Below, piece after piece: positions 2,011 through 21,949 of a stretch of 64,000 bases of DNA (position 1 is the stretch's first letter; every line of letters begins with the position of its first letter). A program made the translations under genes and the position numbers. The notes under the pieces were generated by a model that saw nothing but the letters and a program-made list of their open reading frames with translations, was not told where the DNA came from and did not search any database. This DNA comes from Pestalotiopsis fici W106-1 (Eukaryota > Ascomycota > Sordariomycetes > Amphisphaeriales > Sporocadaceae): NCBI RefSeq assembly GCF_000516985.1, contig NW_006917091.1:7045521-7109520 (forward strand), given 5' to 3'.

Positions 2011-3490
2011 ATGGCTGCTGTAATGGGAGATTTTGCTGCGGATCATTCTCGATTCCACCATAACATGATAGCCTCTGGCCTTCAACACGAACATTGCGAG
2101 CCCACTTATCGACCAACATCCTCTAGATCTCGGCCTAGGCAGTCGTCTTCTGCTTCCCAAATTCGTTCGCCGGCCTCGCCACAGCCAAGGAACGCGACTC
2201 CCTCGAAAAGATCGTGGGAAACAGCAGATACGGAAGCAAAGCCAGACGCCGTCAGTAGCGAAGGCGCATCGCGCTTTCCCACTCCTCCCGAGTCCTCATC
2301 GCCCTCCTCCGCTCATCCCCGACCCGAGGATGAGCGGATAGCTCAATCCAAGACGATGGCTTCTCAAACACAAACCACCATGACCACAGTCCCAACGCCA
2401 GCGGCCCAACAACAACAGCCCACACCCGATGCGGACCCTGCTTCCTCCGCCGCGCCAACACCGGCGCTGCCATATAACGCCTCGTCCCCGCAACAAGGCC
2501 ACACTATTCGCGTACGCGACCTGGCACATATACAGAGTCTGGCTCGAGCCGACATGATGAATGGTGGAAACGGGCCTGGAATATTGAACGATCCGCCACT
2601 GCAAGCCATGAAGTACGAAATCAGCGGCATGCCTATTGGCGACGTTATCGAAATGGTTGCCGCCCTTCTAACCAAGATCACTACGACCAATGATTTGCAG
2701 CACGATGCTTTGCACAGGAATGCCACCCACCAGCAGACCGCTGCCAACCACAACAATGATGGCGCTACCATGAGCCCACTAAGCAGCTCTGTATTAGCTT
2801 TCCACGGTAAAAATGTGCCGGCCATAACGATTCTCAGTTACCTAAGCCGCATTCACAAGTACTGCCCTACTACGTACGAGGTTTTCCTCAGTTTGCTTGT
2901 ATATTTCGATCGCATGACGGAAAGAGTCAACAACATGGTCATGCAAGCTGAAGAAGCCAGGCAAAAAGGGCAACCACAGCGACCATTGCATTCCACATTA
3001 GCTCCTCGGTCGAGCGAGCATACAGATACCGAAATGAAGGATGACGGAAGCGACGAAAGCGATGAGACTGACTCCGACCTGGCGGATGACGATGACAAAC
3101 CGGCACCAAAGGATACGCCGGCAGCAAGTACCGCGCCTCCTGCACCAGCGACCTATTTTGTCGTGGACAGTTTCAACATTCACAGATTGATCATTGCTGG
3201 CGTAACGTGTGCAAGTAAATTCTTCTCGGATGTCTTTTACACAAATTCGAGATATGCCAAGGTGAGTTCCCGTGTTTATTTTGTTTCATGAAATCTTACT
3301 GACCACTGGACAGGTTGGCGGTCTACCCCTGGCGGAATTGAATCACCTGGAGCTTCAATTCCTCGTGCTCAATGATTTTCGCCTTGCTGTTCCGGTGGAA
3401 GATCTGGAGGCATATGCGACTATGCTTGTTGAATTCTACGCCCGCGAAGTTGTTGCACAACGTACTCGTCCCGACCCAACTGCAGAGTAG
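2011..3490 (+). CDS. Pho80-type cyclin (PHO85 cyclin / PREG-like), 2 exons, 475 aa
   Basis: Predicted regulatory cyclin of a Pho85-class kinase. In yeast and Neurospora this class (Pho80, PREG) restrains the phosphate-response transcription factor. Exons are 2011-3261 and 3314-3490; the 52-nt intron has a GTGAGT donor and CAG acceptor and joins codons in phase 0. The first ~220 residues are low-complexity (Pro, Ser, Gln). The cyclin core begins near residue 270 (ITILSYLSRIHKYCPTT, then VFLSLLVYFDRM). It is interrupted by an acidic, disordered insert of about 65 residues and resumes with FNIHRLIIAGVTCASKFF, SRYAKVGG and ELNHLELQFLVLNDFRL, the hallmark second half of Pho80-type cyclins. A downstream ATG at 2356 is a less likely start. 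The family call is strong; the exact pathway partner is inferred. Confidence 0.85.
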
Positions 3491-9840: not shown

Positions 9841-9858
9841 GCCCAATTGGTCTAGCGG

Positions 9859-9910
9859 GTAAGTTGCGATCCTTGTTTGGTTCACAAACTCCATTCTAAC
9901 ATGAATACAG
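9859..9910 (+). other. Spliceosomal-type intron inside the tRNA-Pro D loop (52 nt)
   Basis: Begins GTAAGT, has CTAAC at 9896-9900 (11 nt from branch A to the end) and ends ACAG. Its length and all three signals match the mRNA introns of this window; the cattctaac branch context is identical to that in intron 2 of the membrane-protein gene at 19004-19061. Precise removal restores a standard tRNA-Pro D arm (GGTCTAGCGG joined to TATGAT). A short internal hairpin (gtttg/caaac) is also present. No bulge-helix-bulge involving the flanking exons was recognised. Confidence 0.65.
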
Positions 9911-9928
9911 TATGATACCTGCTTCGGG

Positions 9929-9960
9929 AAAATCGAAGCCCTTCATTGTAAAGATGAAAT
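9929..9960 (+). other. Canonical tRNA anticodon-loop intron (32 nt)
   Basis: Starts one base 3' of the CGG anticodon and ends one base before the 3' anticodon stem, the normal nuclear tRNA intron site cut by the tRNA splicing endonuclease. The internal TCGAAG can form the anticodon-intron helix. Confidence 0.75.
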
Positions 9961-10000
9961 TGCAGGTGGTCCCCGGTTCGATCCCGGGATTGGGCCCAAC

Positions 10001-10006
10001 TTTTTT
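10001..10006 (+). terminator. RNA polymerase III terminator (T6) of tRNA-Pro
   Basis: Six T residues start five bases after the last base of the acceptor stem; a second T5 run follows shortly after. Confidence 0.75.
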
Positions 10007-10357: not shown

Positions 10358-12171
10358 TTATGCAATCACAACCTCTCCAAACAGGCGCTCCCTCTTCATC
10401 GTGACAGCTGCCAAAGTTTGCAGGCCCCCTGCGACAATCACAAGAACAAATGCAGTTTGCATGGCACCCGTGATTGCATCAACTGCCGCGCTCCTCAGTT
10501 CGTCGCTCAAATGCTGAAAAAGGACACTCTGAGTGCCAGAAACGGCGTTCTGTATCTCTTCCGGACTAAAACCTTGACCAGCCAAGACCACACTCAGATT
10601 CCTGACGGCGACGGACTGAAACACTTGGCCTCCAATCACCAGACAAATGGCTGTAGACCCAATCTGGCTGACATTTTGCATATTGATGGCATTGACAATG
10701 TCTCCGGATGGGACCTTGAGCGTTGCCACGGCATATCCCAACTGCAAAGCCAGACCAGTTCCCACACCGACAATGACAGTGAAGCCGTAGATATGCCCGG
10801 CTGGTGTCGACGGCTTGAGGTAGACGTAGAGCAACGACCCACCCAGCGTCATCAGAATCCCCGAGGCAAGATAGAAGGGCATGTAGAACTTGACCTTGGA
10901 CAATGCCCGACCGGACGCCAGGTTGACGCATATGGTGACGAGAAGAAAAGGCAGCAGCCGGACTGCAGCCATGAGGGCCGTGTCGCCAGCAACAAATTGA
11001 AAGTAGACCGGGATGTAATATGTCGTGAAAAATAGCGACGAAACGCAGCATGATGTTCCAATGTACAACGAAATTTGCGTCCTGGACTTTAGGAGGTGTC
11101 CCGGAAACGACCTAGTCGCCGCAGTGGTGAAGATGCAAAAGTATTGCTGGGCAGCATATGCCACCAAGACAACAAGGAACACCACTATGGTTGCAATACT
11201 GCGTCCATCCGCCCACGGCCAGATCCCACCGGCAAAAATGAATGCTAGGGCAAACGCAACCCAGAAGCCCGCACTGAGAACAAAACCGATGAAATCGAGC
11301 TTTTCGATGCGATCACGGACAGATCCGCTGCTATAAGGTCGAATGGCTGGGAGGTAGAAGAGGTACACGGGCGCAGTGATGGCACCAATGACTAGGTCTG
11401 TTCAAAATCCCGGATTAGTATGATCTGGCAATGAGAAATGATTCTGTAAAACGTACTAATGTAGAAGCCCCATCTCCAGGTAGCAGAGCTGACTGAGAAC
11501 CCACCACCCACTACAGGCCCAAGGATACACCCGATACCCCAGAAAAACGCAATTCCCGTGATATAAGTGCCACGCTCTTCTCGAGTGGTCATGGCCGAAA
11601 AGTTATTCAATCCTCCAAGATAAATCCCCGTCCCGCCCATACCGGCAATGATTCTCCCGACAATGAGAGCATTCATGGTGGGTGCCGCACCACAGAGCGC
11701 CGAGCCGGCCTGGAACAGGACGATACCCGCAATGTACAGCCACTTCATATTGAACTTTGCAAACAAGGCACCATAAGGCAATATGACGGCGACCGAGCCC
11801 AGGGGAAACGCCGCGCCGACCCAGGCGAGCTGCGCAACCTGTCCAAATGTCTCAATCACAGCCCCCTGGACATCGGCGGCAATGGTCGTGTCGAGGCCGT
11901 ACATAAGAGCTGATACGTAGAGGGATGCGCAGACTGTCACCCAGCGGAAACCTCGTATCTTGCGGACGTTGTCAGCAAGTGCGCCCGCGTCCTCGTTGCC
12001 ATGCTGGTCTTTTTCGGTGCTCGGGGCTGGGTGAGGTCGCTGGCCTCTTTCGATCTGGACTTCGCTGATTTGTCGGAACAGCACGTTATGCTCTGGAATG
12101 GAATCGAGTCGTGGGACTGGACATTCTTCTTTTGTTGTCGTCGATGACGACGACGATATTGCAGTCTCCAT
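10358..12171 (-). CDS. MFS multidrug/toxin efflux transporter (DHA2, 14-TM type), 2 exons, 584 aa
   Basis: Predicted proton-driven exporter of small molecules in the plasma membrane. Exon 1 is 12171-11457 and exon 2 is 11397-10358. The 59-nt phase-1 intron (GTACGT to CAG on the reverse strand) joins GFYI to NLVIGAITAPVYLFY. The cytosolic N-terminus (about 75 residues) is Ser-rich. The helices include ALMYGLDTTIAADVQGAV, the LIVGRIIAGMGGTG motif and WGIGCILGPVVGG, the antiporter motif C that marks drug efflux members. Total length and helix number suit the 14-helix DHA2 family, which includes fungal mycotoxin exporters. It is divergent from the hydrolase gene at 13172 across about 1 kb. The substrate is unknown. 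Confidence 0.85.
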
Positions 12172-13171
12172 TGCTGAAAACTACCCAGGCGAGATGGCGA
12201 CGCAGAGATTAATGGCAGAGACTATTCTGCTGCAATGGAAAAGGACAAGTCCAAATTTCAACAACCCAGATATGTATTTCATTCATATTGCCTAGAATCG
12301 AAGAATATTGCCTTGCATCCCCAAGTTACAACGAATATATGATATTCCAATGGTCCCCACAGTTGACGAGATGATAGTATATGACGCTGTCTCATGGTAA
12401 TCAACTTTATCAAACCTGTGGACCGCATTTGTCAGTCCCCGAAGGCCATCGGCGGAACGATCGACCTTGAGACAAAGCAAAATATTCAGACGTGATCATT
12501 TGGACAAGCCGCATATAGGAAATGGTAGTCGCATGGACTAGAGCTAGATTCCATTTGGAATGCGGTCTTCTTATCGCATTACTAACCTTTTTTCCACTAC
12601 ATTTGCACATAATCACTGGCTGATTTGTAAGTCGGTGGTCAAAAGCCAGTCTAGTATACTGGATAGAGTTTGAACAGGGAAAACTATTTCCCATGCCAAG
12701 CACATGATTGGAAATAGGTAGAGACTTATTACAAGCATAATGCACAATTTTCCCGTGTTTAAATCGCTGCCGCAGATATCCTTTCTTCTATTTGCTAAAA
12801 CTTACAAACAAGATGTTTCGTGTTTAGCCAGCTGAAGAGACTAGGATCTGTTCAAGAAGTTTGGAGACTATAATGGCAAAAACGAGATCCTGTTTTGGCG
12901 CCGGGATCACTCAATGCTTGCAATGCCATGATGATCTTGGCAGAAATGCTGAAATAGAAATCCTCTCGTGAGGGAGCTGACTGAAAACACACGACCAGCC
13001 TTGCTCAATTGAAAGGCTGCTATCATCGTTCATCGTTCGGGTACCGTCACATTGCGGCGCAGCACCTAGCAGTCGTCCAGTTCCGAACTCCGTTGGCCCC
13101 TCTGCAAATACGACGTCAGCCATGAAATTGAACGTCCGCCTGTCAACAGGAATGTGGCAACAACACACAAC
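12172..13171. promoter_or_regulatory. Shared divergent intergenic region of transporter and hydrolase
   Basis: About 1 kb between two divergent start codons, so both promoters must lie here. No other gene is recognised and no specific operator was identified. Confidence 0.5.
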
Positions 13172-14961
13172 ATGCAATATCTGTTGTTCTGTTTGGCATT
13201 CCTTGCCACCATTCCTCCTAGTATCGCAAAAGGTACAGATCAGGCTCCCCTCAGGCATTCTGAGCTACCTCGAAAGACTGTAATCAATCATGGATTGGAC
13301 GCCGACACTAGCCGATACATTCAAGGTATTGCAGAACATTTCCACGTCCCGAGTATCTCCATTGCAGTTCTAAATGGAAACGAGACGACATTTGAGGTAT
13401 GCGTGTTCATATAAAGAATCTTTTTGTAATCAGGGACTGAAGCATCATCTAGGTCTTTGGCCATGCCATCTTGCCAGACACCCTAGCCACGCTAGATACC
13501 ATGTATTATATTGCATCGTCCACAAAGTCTTCTACGGCCGCTTCACTCTTGTATACTCTGAGACAACAAGAGAAGACCAGCGGCAACAAACAACAGCCAT
13601 GGACCGTTGATTCCAAGCTCAGGGATATACTGGGTGAGGATTTTGCTCTGCCCTCGGAGTACGCGACCCATCACGCAACAATCAAGGATGCGCTTGCACA
13701 CCGTCTCGGACTCGCGCGCTGTGATGAGTCCTATGGGGGCGAAGACTACGGCATCTCGGACTTGGCCCGTAGCCTGCGACACCTTCCCACCATCGCCGAG
13801 CTGCGCCAGCAGTATCACTACCTGAATCAAGGCTACATGCTCGTGCAGGCCGTGATTCAAAAACTGAGTGGACGCTGGATTGGCGAGGTGCACCGCGAGG
13901 CGCTTTGGGAGCCCCTAGGTATGGATACGACTGTCATCAAGCTTTCTGATGCGCTGGAGCTCGACCGTGGAGCCGGCAACGCGACCTTGGCGTTTGGATA
14001 CTCCTACAACCCTTTGACTGGTCGCCACGATCACCAACCCTGGACGGACACGGATCTGGTCGGCGGCGGCGGCATCATCAGCACTATATCGGACATGGCA
14101 AAATGGGTGAGAGCATTCGTGGAGGGCGGTGCATCATTGCCACTTGGCAAGCAGGACTTTGAAGCTCTGAGAACGCCACTGATAATTACGGGAGGCTCTG
14201 TTCGCATTGAGCACATGTCTCCAATCCTCTACGCCATGGGCTGGGATACGATGCACTACCGCGGCGAACGGCTCATTACGCATTCGGGCGAGCTGCCGGG
14301 CTACTCATCACAAATGGCCTACCTCCCAGACCGACAGTGGGGTCTGGTCATGTTATCCAACGCCGACGCCTTTGCACAGGAGGCGTTTGAGGCGATATAC
14401 TTGCGGCTCTTGGACGACGGCCTCGACGTACCCGCAAGCGACCGGCAGGCCGACCTCGTGCCCGAGCTGGACGCGTCACTGGAACGACAGGTGGACACTG
14501 CTGTAGGCGATGCCAGGAAGAGGTTCTACCCACACGCCCCCGATCCGCCGGTCCCACGCGCCCTGCCTCTTCAGGCGTATACTGGCCGGTACTGGAACGA
14601 CGGGTTCCGCGAGCTCAAGCTCCGGGTCGAAAAGAAAGCGCTGGCGTCGACGCCAGCGTGGGATCCCGAGGCACCTGTGCTCCGGGCTGACTGGCATCGC
14701 GTCGTGAACACAACCATTGAGCTCGAGTGGGTTTCGGGAGAACAGTTCCTCGCCTGGGTCGAGACTGAGGTGTGGTCGCTATTGGGCGGCGCCGTGCCGG
14801 CCGAGTTCAGGGTTGGTGCAGATGGCAAGGTAGAAAGCTTGGGCGTTTACCTAGAGCCGAGCTTGATTGAACGGGGAGAGATGATTTGGTTTGATAGGAT
14901 AGTAGATGATGATAAGGAGGACGAGTTGAACGTGGCTAAGAGTATGCCGGGGGAGTTGTGA
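13172..14961 (+). CDS. Secreted serine beta-lactamase-fold hydrolase (class C / transpeptidase-like), 2 exons, 577 aa
   Basis: Predicted extracellular or vacuolar serine hydrolase of the beta-lactamase/penicillin-binding-protein fold. Exons are 13172-13396 and 13453-14961 (56-nt intron, GTATGC to TAG, phase 0). The start was placed at the ATG giving a clear signal peptide (MQYLLFCLAFLATIPPSIA); an upstream in-frame GTG is not a credible fungal start. The catalytic SxxK is S97-S-T-K100 and the YxN motif is Y198-L-N200. HSGELPGYSSQMAYLPD near residue 350 fits the third active-site strand region. A C-terminal beta-rich domain begins around LQAYTGRYWNDG. Fungal homologues act on esters, lactones or amides, so the substrate cannot be read from sequence. 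The neighbouring divergent exporter suggests a joint role. Confidence 0.85.
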
Positions 14962-17900
14962 TTACGCTCCGTGTCCAGACACACTCGCTTGAGATGAGGC
15001 AAAGGTGCTATCATCCTTATATGCAAGATGCCGGTTGCCAATATGTACTGTTCATGGCAACATCTCCAGACTTCTAAGCTGCAAGTCGTGTCAATATTCT
15101 TACTGCAATGCTATAGCCCTCTCAACGACAAGACTGTGAATGTGATATCATCAGAGTCTTGATTATGCAGAAATGGGAGCAACAATATCAAGCTCTAGAT
15201 GACTGACAACATTCGTTTATGTCTGTCTGTGTATGCTATTCACAATCACTAATTTCTGACACAGCCAACATCAATGTTCGGGCCAACGATAAATGCCAAA
15301 GCCACCGCGATCTTAGAGCAAACAAACACGTTTTCGCCTAAATTGGCCTTTTCCCCCGCCAGACTTTCTCATTCTCATTTTCTTTTTCTCTTTTTAGAGA
15401 TAATGACTATATATAGATCCATCAGATCATTGAAGACCATTGCGTCAGCGCAAGGTAGTGAATAGTACTAGGTTTGGAATCCTGCTGCACGAAGGGATAA
15501 TACAGACTGTGCCGTATTCGAGAGAGCTCATGGGTTTCTGGACCAAAGCAAACTGAACTTTTGAAAATATTACCAATTTCTGCGAAAGCTGCATGTCAGA
15601 CGTGTTGTTGCACACGGGCCTTGACGGTTTTGATTCCTTGAGACTGGATAGTTCGAGACCTTTGGAGCATTCTTTTGCAGATTGTTCCACTCAAGTGCCA
15701 AGAAACTGCGCAGAACAGATGCAGGCAGCGTCAGTGTGTGCTCGTGCACTGGACTGGCGCCGATCTTTGACCCATCTCCGCGCGATTACTTGCCTACCAC
15801 TTACATGGGTCGACCATTCCAACGCAATGGAGATTCCGAATAATGCGATCTGGGCGCCTGGTGCTTCTCCCGGGAGGAAGGAGAAAAATGGTCGAGCCCA
15901 AGACAGCAGGGCTGCATGTCGGATCTTTTCAGAATGCAAGGAGTTACGTACGTCTTGTCTCGGAGCGCTCTAGGAACCGACTGTTTGCGGTGAGTCTATC
16001 ACGGCTAAGGGTTCAGCGTTCTGCCGACGCCCGTGCAGGGAGTGACCCGGCTTTGGAATCATTTGAAAAGTTGTTGAGAAAGGCTTGGGTATCTAGAAAC
16101 TACCTAGGCAGAGTGCACGGCTTGTCTTCTGAGGTTAGGATATGTTACATATATCACATTTTTCGAGAATGTGATGAAGCAGCTGTAATTTCCTGGCTCC
16201 AAATCGCGACATGCCATACACTAATGGAGCGAGAACCGCTTAACTTTGGCCCTAGAACAGGTTCCCCAGATCGCTAGAGATTACCCACATCAGCTGCATT
16301 TCAGTGTAACATGTCAAATCTCGGCAGCCCAGAATTGCAGCAACATTGCCGTCTGTCATTTATGATGTAGTATTTCATTATTAGTCTTTCTCTTGGCCTG
16401 CTCCAAATCGTTTGTCGTCGCAGCTGTAGCCCCAGCGAATATGCATGCAGGCTTGGGAGCATACACCTACCATCCATACTGGCAGATGGGCGCAAGAGTG
16501 GGTGGCTGGGCGCGCACGGTAAACGGAGGTGATGTTCCTCGTCCACGTTCGAAGTAGCTCTAACCATGATATCGGGTTATCAAAGAGCCTAGGCTAGTAT
16601 AGTCGAGAGATGTTATCATCAACTGAGGGGAAGAGCAGGTCCGTGGCCTTCTTCATCTGCACGTCTTGAGCGGCCCCTCCCACGTGGGTGATCAGATGTA
16701 ATAGGTCTTGGAGCCACTCTGTATATACCGCAGCCTTCCACTCACCCACCCATTGGCAATTGAACCGTACATGTTCCGTGCAACCACCGGAGCTTTTGAA
16801 TGTGACATTACCGCCACAGATGGCTCGGTCCGCCTCTCTCTCTCCCTCTTTTGTTTTTCTTCATGATTTCATCCGACATTTGCTGCCTGTGAGTTGTGTG
16901 ACAGAATTTGTGGCGACTGGATGTGACGGCAAACGACTCGAGCCAAACACCAAACACTGGAACTGCCAAAGTGATAAAGTGGATGCCGTTTTCGTTTTGA
17001 CGTGGGCTATTTGCAGGGCTTGGCGGTACAGGGTGTATGTGACGACGGGCGCAACCTAAAGTGAGAAGCTCTGGAGCCGTGTATGATGTTATGGATCAGT
17101 TCCAGTGACCAGGGCAGATTTGGAACCAGGAACCTGAACCATGGTGACATGGTCCCATATATTAGTAGTACGAAATAGGCACAGTACTATGCATAGTAGC
17201 ATCTTCGCAAGAAGCTAAATACATAACCTAGTCTAGGTAGTTCAGTCGATCAAACACGTCTTGGGTGGACTCGGTATATGGCCCTCTTGGCCCTGGGCTT
17301 GCTGGCAGGCTGGCCAAAGCTAATGTTGGGAATACCCGGAGGATTGATATCAAGGAACGACTGGGAAACGAACCCGGGGGGCCTTTTAGTGGAACGGTGA
17401 TCTCCGCCCGATACCACCCTAAAAATCCCACTACACCACAGAATACTCTCGGCACTTTTCATTGTGCATAGTAAGCCAACATGTTATGTAAGTAGTACTA
17501 TATAATTCTGTTTCATCAAGGCACAGACATGCCTGGATCGCTGATCTTTCGTTGGAGATCATTGAGCTGAGCTGGAACAAGGGAAGAGAAGTTATATCCG
17601 CGTTGCAAAGATGGCATGCAGAGCGCGAGTGTGCCCAAGTGAGCAATCAATGAGCGTACATAAGCAGCTGCAGTAATAAGCAAGCCCAAATGTCGAGATT
17701 GAGGTGCGTGCATATTACACTGTGGAAGCAGATCCATCTTTCTGCGATTGCAGCCACGTATTTATCTCGTTTGTCGACCTTGATACCCAAAGGTGATTCA
17801 TTTGCTCCTAATCTCCCACTGCCACGACTGATGAGTGTGGTCAGTATATTGTGTATCCGTGCTCTCTATCTGCTTAGGTATGTGTTCGTACGACTCTTCG

Positions 17901-18734
17901 TTATCACAGCAAAGCGATGGTTACACGGCCTATCATGACATGGAATAAGAAAGTACATCCCTTGAACATCCGCAAACGATATAGGAAATATATGGGGTAA
18001 AGCGATTGGTTGAGATCAGACCTCCAGCATGTGTCTCTCTTCTTTTTCAAACTAGAGAATTCAATATTGTAATCATGTAGACTGAGTAATATCATATACT
18101 CGCGGTCTGTGTCTCACTTTATCCGCCCGGCTTGAGGCCAAAGCGTCCGATTGTTCTTGTCTATCTTGTTCGTCTAGCGAACGATACCCATGGGACCCAT
18201 ACTGCCCTGGTCGCCTCAATAGGAATGGCCCCCCTCACTTGGACCCCTGCCCATGATCAGTGTTGCGCCCTGGCCGCTGTCACTGATGCGCACGCTGACT
18301 GCCCAAAACGGGTTCGTCAGGATGGCTACGAGGTTGCATGCGGCTGCAAGCATTTGTTTCCAATCCTCGCATGTCACCGTCAGTGTGCAAGCCGAGTCAC
18401 GGCCACGCGAGATTCCATGTTCGTTCCTGTCTTACATTTGAACAGGGCTCCGGGCTGGGGGCACAACGGGTCGGCCGGCGCGAACGTTGGTTGGGAATTT
18501 CGGGAGTATTTTCCCTCTCTTTTCATAAAGACAGCCATGGGCCCTCCCAGAAAGCAAAAACCCGAAACGGAGCACCGGCACTCGTTGAACTGGTCCAAGA
18601 CACCTTGGACAGTTATGATATATCGAAACCACTGTCCTTGTTAGGACGGCACAAGTTTCTTTCGTTTCGTCAATAGAAAAAAAAAAAACCGAGCCGGCTC
18701 TTGGTATAACGACCAGAACTACTTTCTGGCCACC
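14962..18734. other. 3.8-kb region without a recognisable gene
   Basis: Several open frames of 60-170 codons exist on both strands (for example 15593-15973 and 18132-18644), but none shows a domain, signal peptide or splice-supported extension and many overlap antisense frames. No tRNA, 5S rRNA or repeat was found. Base composition is ordinary, so this is not RIP-affected DNA. Confidence 0.45.
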
Positions 18735-20227
18735 ATGGCGTTGGACTCATCTTTCTCGATGAGCAACCTTGGTGAAGCAGAGCCATGGTCGAATAGGCGG
18801 TCCGTAATTCTTGGTGTCATTATTACATTCCTGGTACGCAATGCTTCCCAAGCATAAAATTCATTTCTGTCCGAAGCACAACCACGTCGTCTGACTAGTT
18901 TTTAAAGATAACATCATGGTTTTGCGTACTTGGACGTCTCTACGTTCGTGCCAAAATTGTACGAGACCCCGGGTGGGATGATCTATGTGTTATGTTCTAT
19001 GCTGTAAGTACTGATGAACAATCACACCTTGAGGATTATTCATTCTAACCTACTGATGCAGCTCTTTACAACCATTGGGAGTATCTGCGTTCTGCTGGCC
19101 GCGGATCGCTATGGACTTGGCCAACACTTTTCGTCCCTCACGCCCGAGCAGATGGTAGCATACCTCCAAGTTTTCTATGTCTGCAACGCGTCCTACTGTA
19201 CGGCAACGGCCTTTATCAAGGAAGCCCTGCTCCTCCAGTATCTGCGCGTTTATGGTCGTGGGCACATCATGTGGCGCCTCACCTTTGCCGTCATCATTTT
19301 CACCGCAATCTGGGGAGTCGCCTACTCCTTCATTGCTTGGGTTCCGTGCTTCCCCGTGACCGGTTTTTGGACGGGTAATGGCAAGTGCTACGGCTACGGC
19401 TCGCCCATTCCTACTCAGTTTGTCGGCACCTACGAGAGCCATACGGCCATTAACATGATCTTGGACTTTATTGTCCTCCTCATTCCACTGCCGCTACTTG
19501 TCAGAGAGGGGTCAACACTGAAGCAGAAACTACGGATCCTAGGTTTGCTCATCATGGGTTCATTGTAAGCGGTCTCTCAGTTTCCCCTTTCCAAGCTTTC
19601 TCATTTCTTCCCTTCGTCTTCTCTCTTGCCTCATACAGAACAAGAAAGTGCAATACTAACCGACATCACCCGAACAGAGTCATTATGCTAGCCATCTGGC
19701 GTCTCGCCACTATCATCGACCACCAGGCCGCGACCTGGCCAACACACGACCCGACCTGGTACGGCCCCATCAGCATCATCCTGGCCGTCCTCGAGGTGGA
19801 CTGCGCCGCCATTTGCGCCTCGATTCCCATCTTCTGGCCGGTGCTCGAGGCCCGCTGGGGCACCATCTTCATCACCCAAGAAATCAAAATCACGCGCGAG
19901 GACCGCCGCTTGGAGGAAGAAGCGGCCGTGGCGGAATCGGCAGCAGCAGTGGGAGGCAGCGACAGGGATTATTATCACTCCTACTTGCAACACCACCAAC
20001 ATCAACAGCACAATTATCACGGCTCCAGGGGCAGTGGCAGCGAGCTCGAGCTCAATCTCAAGCGGTCCGAGAGCAACCGCTCCTTGGGTGGAACACATTA
20101 CAATGACATGTTTGTCATGCACTCGGTTGATCCTCTTCGCAGCCCGACGTTGGGCCAGGTCCGCACCGCGGCTGTTATTGAAAGCGACGCGGCCAGGGAC
20201 GCTGGCGGTAAGCGATGGGGATTTTGA
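18735..20227 (+). CDS. SAT4/PTH11-like rhodopsin-fold integral membrane protein, 4 exons, 418 aa
   Basis: Seven-helix membrane protein of the fungal rhodopsin-domain (SAT4) family, often described as PTH11-like GPCRs. Exons are 18735-18833, 18899-19003, 19062-19564 and 19678-20227; all joins keep frame and carry GTACGC, GTAAGT and GTAAGC donors with AG acceptors. Family hallmarks are LGRLYVRAKIVRDPGWDD early, FYVCNASYCTATAFIKEALLLQY, CFPVTGFWTGNGKCYGYG in the extracellular loop, and the MILDFIVLLIPLPLL helix. The cytosolic tail (about 110 residues) has a His/Gln/Tyr tract and ends without a known motif. Ligand and pathway are unknown; relatives include a surface sensor in plant-pathogenic fungi. 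Confidence 0.85.
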
Positions 20228-20504
20228 GGGGACCGACTGACTAAGACTAGTTTAAATCCTCTAATATATAAAATAATATGAAGAAAGGACCTCGAAATTA
20301 TTCACACCGCCCGTGGTGGTCGTACTATATCTGACAGAGAATGACATTCTGAATGCCCTGACGCAGAATACGTATCCAGGCAAGGACCAGACACAAATCC
20401 ATTCACCAATAATGCTCGAACGAATACCTAGTCAGCGGGGTGGTTTCTTTTCATGACCACGATGCTATTCATCTGTTTTCCTGATTATCAACTACCTATA
20501 TTGT
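20228..20504. other. Intergenic between convergent genes
   Basis: Short AT-rich spacer between the 3' ends of the membrane-protein gene and the disrupted P450 gene. Nothing else is seen. Confidence 0.5.
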
Positions 20505-21949
20505 CTAGAGCTCCTTGTAGAAATCGCCGCGGGGTGTAAACTGAAGGAACGGCCCATCATGGTCGGAAGTAAACACATCCTTGAGCCTGAATTCCGTATC
20601 ATGGTTTGAACCCGACGTGTCTACACTTTGGGCAAAGTCAAAGTCAAAGTACCACAGAGTCTTTGCCAGGGCCATGCCAACTTCCAGATAGGCGAGCGGT
20701 TTGCCAGCGCACGCGCGGGAGCCGGCACCAAAGGGCATAAAGGCGGCCGTGTTGCTCGCCTTTTCCGAGGACTCGGTCGATGATGACGGGAGCCACCGCT
20801 CGGGCTTGTAGGCAAAAGGCTCGGGGAAGTAGTCGGGGTTGTGGTGGATGGAGTAAATGTTGACTCCAACCTGCGTGCCCTGGGGAATGACGCGCCCGTC
20901 AATGATCAAGAGCTCTTTGGCACTCTCGAGCGACTGCTCCCTCCACACCGTCCCGGCGACGGGTGGCGACAGCCTCAGCGCCTCGTTGATGCACGCGTGC
21001 AGGTATTGGCAGTTCGCGAGTTTTTGCCCGCTCTTGATATCGTCGCCAGCCGTAAAGGTGGATCGAATCTCCTTGGCCACTGTCTTTTGGCACTCTGGGT
21101 TCCGCGCCAAGTAGAAGAAGAGGGAGCTGAGCGCAGTAGAACTCGTGTCCCCAGCGGCAGGGAGGAAGAAGATGGCCTCAGCCCACAGCTCGCTCAGGGT
21201 GATCTTCTCGTCCCCGGAAGCCTGGAGGGCATCCGCGAGGTGCGAGTACAAGTCGACGCGTGCATACCTGTCCTCGGCCAATCTAGCCTTGATCATCTTC
21301 CTCAGGGTTGGAAGAAACGCTTCGCCCTTGATGATAGCTGGAACGTAGATTGGGATGCCGAATTTGATGGTTTTCAAAAATCTTAATTGCATGTACACTA
21401 AACAAGAGCACAAACTCAGTGAGTTCTGTCAGCAATAAAGGACTGCTAGTTGTGCTCACAGTTGATGATCCAACTGCCTCGTGCTATAGCGCGCGGGAGG
21501 TACCGATGTTCTTCCTCGGTCTGGAGTCTCAAATTGTATCCAAACGCAAGCAGGGCGGCAATATCGAGCCCCAAGTATTTGCAACGCCGGGACATGTTCA
21601 CGGCAGACTCTGCACCCGTCTTTGTGGTAGATGTTGTTGAGAGCTGCTTCACAAAGAGGTCGATCTGTTCCGTGATGATGGGTTCAAGGCTGCGTATTGA
21701 TGTTGGCGTGAGCAGCTGACTGACCAGTCGGCGCTTGAGGCGATGGACCTGTGGGTTGATGGTATTGAAGACATTTGTGGTCGACGGGTCCATGTTGCCA
21801 TCCTGGTAGCATTTTGACTTGAGCACATTGTCGTTTTGATAAATGTCTGCCAACGTGTAAGTTTATTTGCTATACTAGGCAGCCAAAGTGAGTGTAAGCT
21901 CGGTGGGTGGGAAGCTGTATTACCATTCGCAGCTTGGACCGAGTTGAAC
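20505..21949 (-). pseudogene. Cytochrome P450, C-terminal part of a gene split by a retrotransposon
   Basis: The 3' half of a P450 gene on the reverse strand: rest of exon 3 (21949-21924), exon 4 (21846-21460) and exon 5 (21397-20505), with introns of 77 and 62 nt. It carries the I-helix motif AAGDTSS, ExxR (EALR), PERW and the heme loop FGAGSRACAGK (Cys at about residue 450 of the ancestral protein). No stop or frameshift lies inside these exons. Upstream exons are 5.3 kb away at 27579-27208, beyond the Copia element. Removing the element and one target-site copy gives a single frame of 518 codons including stop. The gene as it stands should not make a full-length enzyme. Its substrate is unknown; sequence style resembles fungal secondary-metabolism P450s such as CYP65. 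Confidence 0.85.

Follow-up and report, generated by a model that had tools for sequence, protein, structure and literature searches.

How can a nuclear tRNA gene give rise to a tRNA when its D loop carries what looks like a spliceosomal intron, in addition to the ordinary tRNA intron at position 37/38? The question is raised by a tRNA-Pro(CGG) gene in the window, i.e., the whole stretch of 64,000 nucleotides analyzed here, which corresponds to C1:7045521-7109520 of a genome of 51.7 Mb in 20 contigs that was itself searched. The tRNAscan-SE 2.0 paper describes the tRNA genes of eukaryotes as "limited to one intron" (PMC8450103), and in the literature on tRNA introns and spliceosomal tRNA splicing that we surveyed, mostly outside subscription journals, we found no case of a nuclear tRNA gene that naturally carries a spliceosomal intron.

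Anatomy of the tRNA-Pro(CGG) gene

The features of the locus, in window coordinates, are as follows:

9841-9996, plus strand: tRNA-Pro(CGG) gene with two insertions (18 + 52 + 18 + 32 + 36 nt), delimited from the letters and with ARAGORN
9841-9858, plus strand: 5' exon, with the acceptor 5' strand and the 5' half of the D arm, as far as G19
9848-9858, plus strand: A box TGGTCTAGCGG, whole, with the D-loop insertion starting at the very next base
9859-9910, plus strand: 52-nt insertion of spliceosomal type (GT-AG) in the D loop, between G19 and T20
9859-9864, plus strand: 5' splice site GTAAGT of the D insertion, from the letters
9894-9900, plus strand: putative branch site TTCTAAC of the D insertion, the same seven letters as in the D insertions of both tRNA-Cys genes described below
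9908-9910, plus strand: 3' splice site CAG of the D insertion, from the letters
9911-9928, plus strand: middle exon, with the anticodon CGG at 9925-9927 and G37 at 9928
9929-9960, plus strand: canonical 37/38 tRNA intron of 32 nt (ARAGORN)
9961-9996, plus strand: 3' exon, with the anticodon 3' strand, the T arm, the acceptor 3' strand and the discriminator C
9975-9985, plus strand: B box GGTTCGATCCC, from pattern and letters
10001-10006, plus strand: T6, the Pol III terminator

A first-pass annotation of this DNA had placed the gene at 9841-9995; the start stands, whereas the end had left out the discriminator base C9996. The 52-nt insertion that it described, with GTAAGT, CTAAC and a terminal CAG, is confirmed by the letters, CTAAC occupying 9896-9900 with 11 nt following the putative branch A, and the separate 32-nt intron at 37/38 is recovered by ARAGORN. 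On the raw locus ARAGORN is misled into a tRNA-Ile(tat) call with a 79-nt intron; once the 52 nt are taken out, the call becomes tRNA-Pro(cgg), and the 32-nt intron lies in the anticodon loop. Excision does rebuild a D arm, as had been proposed, but to call this arm textbook was slightly generous, since its stem contains one mismatch and one G-U pair; the same letters are present in the Pro(CGG) and Pro(TGG) paralogues. The acceptor, anticodon and T stems of the spliced tRNA were described as perfect, and they are paired throughout (7/7, 5/5 and 5/5, respectively; ARAGORN); the B box and the T6 terminator are likewise intact. With the insertion removed, the gene has the cloverleaf, A box, B box and Pol III terminator expected of a functional nuclear tRNA gene. 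Classification as a tRNA pseudogene, with broken stems, a broken promoter or other decay, was considered and rejected, the stems, boxes and terminator being whole apart from the insertion.

Two other approaches were of little help for this locus. An Rfam cmscan at the gathering threshold gives no match in the window or at the two tRNA-Cys loci, and on the narrow Pro locus two chance matches only; the same scan misses ordinary tRNAs, including two ordinary Pro paralogues, and its silence is therefore uninformative on the window gene. Minimum-free-energy folds of the precursor and spliced forms show no cloverleaf, even for mature sequences, and were hence not used.

Other tRNA-Pro genes of the genome

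When the genome is searched at the DNA level with the tRNA-Pro locus as query, an uninterrupted tRNA-Pro(CGG) gene is found on contig C3, with its own 37/38 intron and terminator, and also tRNA-Pro(TGG). The existence of an uninterrupted tRNA-Pro(CGG) elsewhere had been named in the first-pass annotation as one of several points that would together speak against the window gene, and to this extent the objection holds: the window copy is redundant, and the C3 gene is evidence against the necessity of the window locus, which could be dispensable or newly dead. The locus might then be a dispensable copy, or one that has died recently, in which an intron became lodged, with the C3 gene supplying tRNA-Pro(CGG), whatever the tRNA-Cys genes do. 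We consider this unlikely, given that the stems, A and B boxes, terminator and 37/38 intron of the window gene are all intact, and that two tRNA-Cys genes of the same build have kept their splice signals. Furthermore, the acceptor stems of the window and C3 genes differ in three pairs, and both are fully paired when G-U is counted; judged from the letters, paired but different stems are unlike what free decay would leave.

Two tRNA-Cys(GCA) genes of the same build

The same arrangement, a GT-AG insertion in the D loop together with an intron at 37/38, is found in two tRNA-Cys(GCA) genes:

C8:1177709-1177852, minus strand: tRNA-Cys(GCA) with a 58-nt D-loop GT-AG insertion and a 37/38 intron (ARAGORN after excision)
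within C11:619067-619229, minus strand: tRNA-Cys(GCA) with a 58-nt D-loop GT-AG insertion and a 37/38 intron (ARAGORN after excision)

Both D insertions lie between A21 and T22 in the numbering of this analysis, i.e., two bases away from the 19/20 site of the Pro gene, and contain GTAAGT, TTCTAAC and CAG; the 37/38 introns measure 14 or 15 nt. ARAGORN calls no gene at the raw Cys loci, whereas two ordinary Pro genes that served as controls are called, and it returns tRNA-Cys(gca) at both loci once the D insertion has been excised.

Comparison of the two Cys copies separates the signals from their surroundings. The exons are identical (72/72), and the D insertions agree at 39 of 58 positions, which comprise all 16 positions of the splice signals (GTAAGT, TTCTAAC and CAG) and 23 of the remaining 42 (Fisher one-sided p 4.7e-4); the 60-nt upstream flanks, aligned without gaps, match at nine positions. 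The splice signals have thus been kept while their surroundings diverged, and the pair looks like an old duplication in which selection has held both the tRNA and the splice signals, although exon-only gene conversion may also account for the identity of the exons. Away from the signals, the resemblance between the Pro and Cys D introns does not exceed that of shuffled sequences (906 and 524 of 2000 shuffles reach the observed similarity), and a common origin of the Pro and Cys introns is therefore not supported.

The divergence pattern also bears on whether the insertion is removed at all. Expansion segments stay in some rRNAs, and the insertion could similarly be retained to form a long D loop of the tRNA; this loop lies at the surface, and insertions of 52, 58 and 58 nt leave the stems intact. 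The preferential retention of the splice signals between the Cys copies, set against the divergence of the remainder, speaks against a retained loop, which we regard as barely conceivable.

Splice signals and comparison with host introns

All three D insertions have GTAAGT, CTAAC with 11-12 nt after the branch A, and CAG, and they share the TTCTAAC branch and a TACAG ending. A GTRNGT start, a YAG end and CTRAY at 8-17 nt from the end coincide in only five of 2,000,000 random 52-mers drawn with the dinucleotide make-up of the window. The full motif, in which an A box is followed by GT..CTRAY..YAG and a B box, occurs only in the window tRNA-Pro gene and the two tRNA-Cys genes when the window is searched together with 295,144 letters of own-genome loci, which overlap and were picked by tRNA-like patterns rather than sampled at random.

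For comparison with introns of protein genes, 947 raw ORF-joining junctions were collected, many of them alternatives for the same places. Both GTRNGT and CTRAY are present in 17, which reduce to ten when collapsed by 5' position with the shortest kept; as the 930 other junctions were dropped, the ten are biased to the consensus, and they are candidates rather than RNA-proven introns. Their lengths range from 46 to 91 nt, with 8-28 nt after the branch A, and GTAAGT is the start of six of these ten consensus-selected candidates; the Pro D insertion, with its 52 nt and 11 nt after the branch A, falls inside both of these consensus-selected ranges. The base before CTAAC is T in all three D insertions versus a purine in nine of the ten consensus-selected host candidates, and the fungal branch consensus RCTRAY given in a study of fungal U3 genes (PMC5832005) also has a purine before CTRAY, unlike the T of the D insertions. 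This T is possibly a tRNA-specific signal or a sign of shared origin.

With respect to intron class, the splice sites and the branch of a U2-type intron are present at workable spacing in each of the three insertions, and exact excision restores a functional-looking RNA, which ARAGORN calls as Pro(cgg) once and as Cys(gca) twice. Group I and group II introns have a catalytic core of hundreds of nucleotides, for which 52 and 58 nt are too short, and a self-splicing intron was accordingly rejected. The anatomy, together with two tRNA-Cys genes built alike, supports the original description of a spliceosomal-type D-loop intron besides the normal tRNA intron, and argues that the D insertions of the tRNA-Pro and tRNA-Cys genes are probably U2-type introns removed by the spliceosome.

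A different route of excision would employ the tRNA splicing endonuclease, or another endonuclease together with a ligase. The D-arm introns of Cyanidioschyzon and of archaea are thought to be removed by endonuclease and ligase, and the introns of C. merolae tRNA-Ile(UAU) are of the endonuclease type. Bulge-helix-bulge pairing at the D junctions of the tRNA-Cys genes reaches 4/4 in one register, two of the pairs being G-U, so that a pairing of the endonuclease type is conceivable for these genes; for tRNA-Pro the best register gives 2/4, whereas the single positive control, the 37/38 intron of the Pro gene, gives 4/4 in one of the two orientations tried. A D-arm intron does exist in C. merolae tRNA-Ile(UAU) (PMC9602550), but the endonuclease route leaves GTAAGT, CTAAC and CAG in all three insertions unexplained and appears highly improbable.

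Search for an uninterrupted tRNA-Cys

tRNA-Cys is indispensable to a cell. When the genome is searched by BLAST with the unspliced tRNA-Cys gene, at E values up to 10, two places are found, and both are interrupted. A pattern for an uninterrupted tRNA-Cys matches 19 places in the genome, and no such gene was found among the seven of these that were run through ARAGORN. The seven were chosen in two cases by look and in five by an A at position 21, the other 12 matches being judged from the letters alone; five of the seven stretches were 99 nt long, which a long 37/38 intron could overrun, and neither the BLAST nor the pattern search would detect a tRNA-Cys in which position 32 is C or the D loop is unusual. 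If the D-interrupted genes are the nuclear tRNA-Cys set of this genome, as found here, then the D insertion must be removed, since the cell needs tRNA-Cys. The necessity of tRNA-Cys is the strongest argument for removal, and it is drawn from absence in limited searches.

An RF00005 search of the genome lists 63 tRNAs, and this list lacks several that ARAGORN calls, e.g., Pro genes, and was therefore not used for isoacceptor counts. Eight of the 63 listed matches lie within about 11 kb (10,360-21,806) on contig C20, which is probably the mitochondrial genome.

A census of A boxes directly followed by GTRWGT gives 43 places for TGGT, 21 for TAGC, 28 for TGGC and 23 for TAGT, as compared with 56, 26, 25 and 53 for the respective reversed-pattern controls, so that the bare pattern is not enriched; two of the 21 TAGC-type places are the tRNA-Cys(GCA) genes. 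Among the matches inspected (25 of 43, 21 of 21, 3 of 28 and 4 of 23, with 62 of 115 unread), a downstream B box is present only in the window tRNA-Pro gene and the two tRNA-Cys genes. Two loci that match a laxer B-box pattern (L144 and L175) were judged not to be tRNAs. A second pattern, CTAAC followed by YAG and a B box of a form that excludes the Cys genes, has 14 matches, of which only the window gene was read as a D-interrupted tRNA, by eye from strings of 80 letters; 13 of the matches are forward and one is reverse, versus 17 and 20 in the controls, the reverse count being too low to trust. In viral and prokaryote contig collections, which say little about fungal relatives, junction patterns for tRNA-Cys and tRNA-Pro returned 0, 19 and 5 stretches, none of the 24 having a GTTCRANNC B box within 200 nt.

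Some other sites with B boxes came up in the genome. A B box and a T run in tRNA-like surroundings, which ARAGORN misreads or does not call, are found at C1:3120439-3120477 (minus strand), C1:6290656 (plus strand) and C2:2294482 (plus strand), and these sites may be degenerate tRNAs or tRNAs interrupted elsewhere. At C1:3376212 and C2:3702812 there are related, very AT-rich repeats with a B-box-like site and the look of RIP mutation; taken with a sub-threshold fungal rhodopsin domain match in an ORF of the window, they suggest a filamentous ascomycete.

Proposed maturation pathway

The anatomy, the conservation between paralogues and the failed search for an uninterrupted tRNA-Cys are observations, beside which we infer transcription by Pol III, removal by the spliceosome and the order of the steps. 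Pol III would start from the intact A and B boxes and transcribe through the D intron. Both internal promoter boxes are whole because the D insertions begin right behind the A box (Pro) or two bases further on (Cys), and Pol III is expected to read through the D intron, as no T run is long enough to stop it; the longest inner T run is 3 in the window tRNA-Pro gene and at most 2 in the tRNA-Cys genes. The spliceosome would then recognize GTAAGT, CTAAC and CAG and excise the D intron in the nucleus, an event that would create the D arm, and the tRNA endonuclease would next remove the 37/38 intron, with a ligase joining the halves. One tRNA precursor would thus probably need two unrelated splicing machines. 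The tRNA endonuclease is reported to contact the D arm through Sen54, and it would follow that the D intron has to leave before the 37/38 intron. The order would parallel that in C. merolae, where the D- and T-introns are supposed to go before the anticodon intron (PMC9602550).

A point against spliceosomal removal is that Pol III transcripts are without the cap and the CTD that help splicing. Since splicing is normally coupled to Pol II, the spliceosome might instead have as its substrate a Pol II transcript extending across the tRNA, and not the Pol III transcript. This is compatible with the sequence; however, the A and B boxes are complete, a T6 terminator is present and the gene has no long T run inside it, all of which favors Pol III, and no ORF of at least 110 aa was found to overlap 9841-9996, which leaves a Pol II substrate very unlikely.

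Comparison with known systems

In work by Koehrer, Vogel and Domdey (EMBO J 1990), a pre-mRNA intron in an engineered yeast tRNA precursor was reportedly removed by the pre-mRNA machinery. That precursor was an artificial construct, whereas the fungal tRNA genes with D introns are natural.

By their anatomy, the D introns resemble the spliceosomal introns of U6 and U3 and may be placed in this class. The promoter of U6 is of a different type from that of a tRNA gene, and U6 is a part of the spliceosome, whereas the promoter boxes A and B lie inside the tRNAs considered here, which also have a further intron of a different kind. A study of U6 describes an mRNA-type intron in S. pombe U6 whose splicing belongs to U6 maturation (PMC10484740), so that fungal U6 snRNA is, like the D-intron tRNAs, a small structured Pol III RNA with an mRNA-type intron. 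Fungal U3 likewise has a GT-AG intron in a small structured RNA, which in this case is a snoRNA; these introns have GTRWGT, RCTRAC and CAG, they are present in most of the Pezizomycotina analyzed, and intron-bearing and intronless copies can share one genome (PMC5832005). According to the same authors, no small structured RNAs other than U3 and U6 are known to be frequently interrupted (PMC5832005).

A likeness in gene structure exists with the nuclear tRNA-Ile(UAU) of C. merolae, which has introns at 12/13, 37/38 and 53/54 and thus, like the window gene, combines a D-arm intron with one at 37/38 (PMC9602550). GT-AG splice signals are not described for the C. merolae introns in the excerpted text, unlike the signals of the D-intron tRNAs (PMC9602550).

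Implications for tRNA maturation and annotation

Taken from the sequences, the arrangement would mean that every cytosolic tRNA-Cys passes through the spliceosome first and the tRNA endonuclease second, and that the action of the spliceosome on Pol III transcripts is a direct requirement for decoding any cysteine codon, a reading towards which we lean slightly. If this is true, spliceosomal introns would have colonized one more class of small RNA in fungi, the tRNAs, and only in the stretch that directly follows the A box. Dependence of a single tRNA on the spliceosome as well as the tRNA endonuclease would violate both the one-intron rule (PMC8450103) and the restriction to U3 and U6 (PMC5832005) cited above; C. 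merolae already provides an exception to the former (PMC9602550). Furthermore, the genes would form a natural experiment on three questions: can a Pol III transcript that has neither cap nor CTD find its way to the spliceosome, in which order do two splicing systems work on the same RNA, and by what route do non-coding genes acquire introns? Essential tRNAs of this kind can escape gene finders, as ARAGORN mislabels the Pro locus and calls nothing at the raw Cys loci.

Other features of the window

Domain matches identify the following ORFs in the window:

2011-3288, plus strand: cyclin ORF
11395-12171, minus strand: MFS/sugar transporter ORF
13471-14958, plus strand: ORF of a protein with beta-lactamase and DUF3471 domains
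20508-21413, minus strand: cytochrome P450 ORF

A further ORF of the window has a sub-threshold match to a fungal rhodopsin domain.
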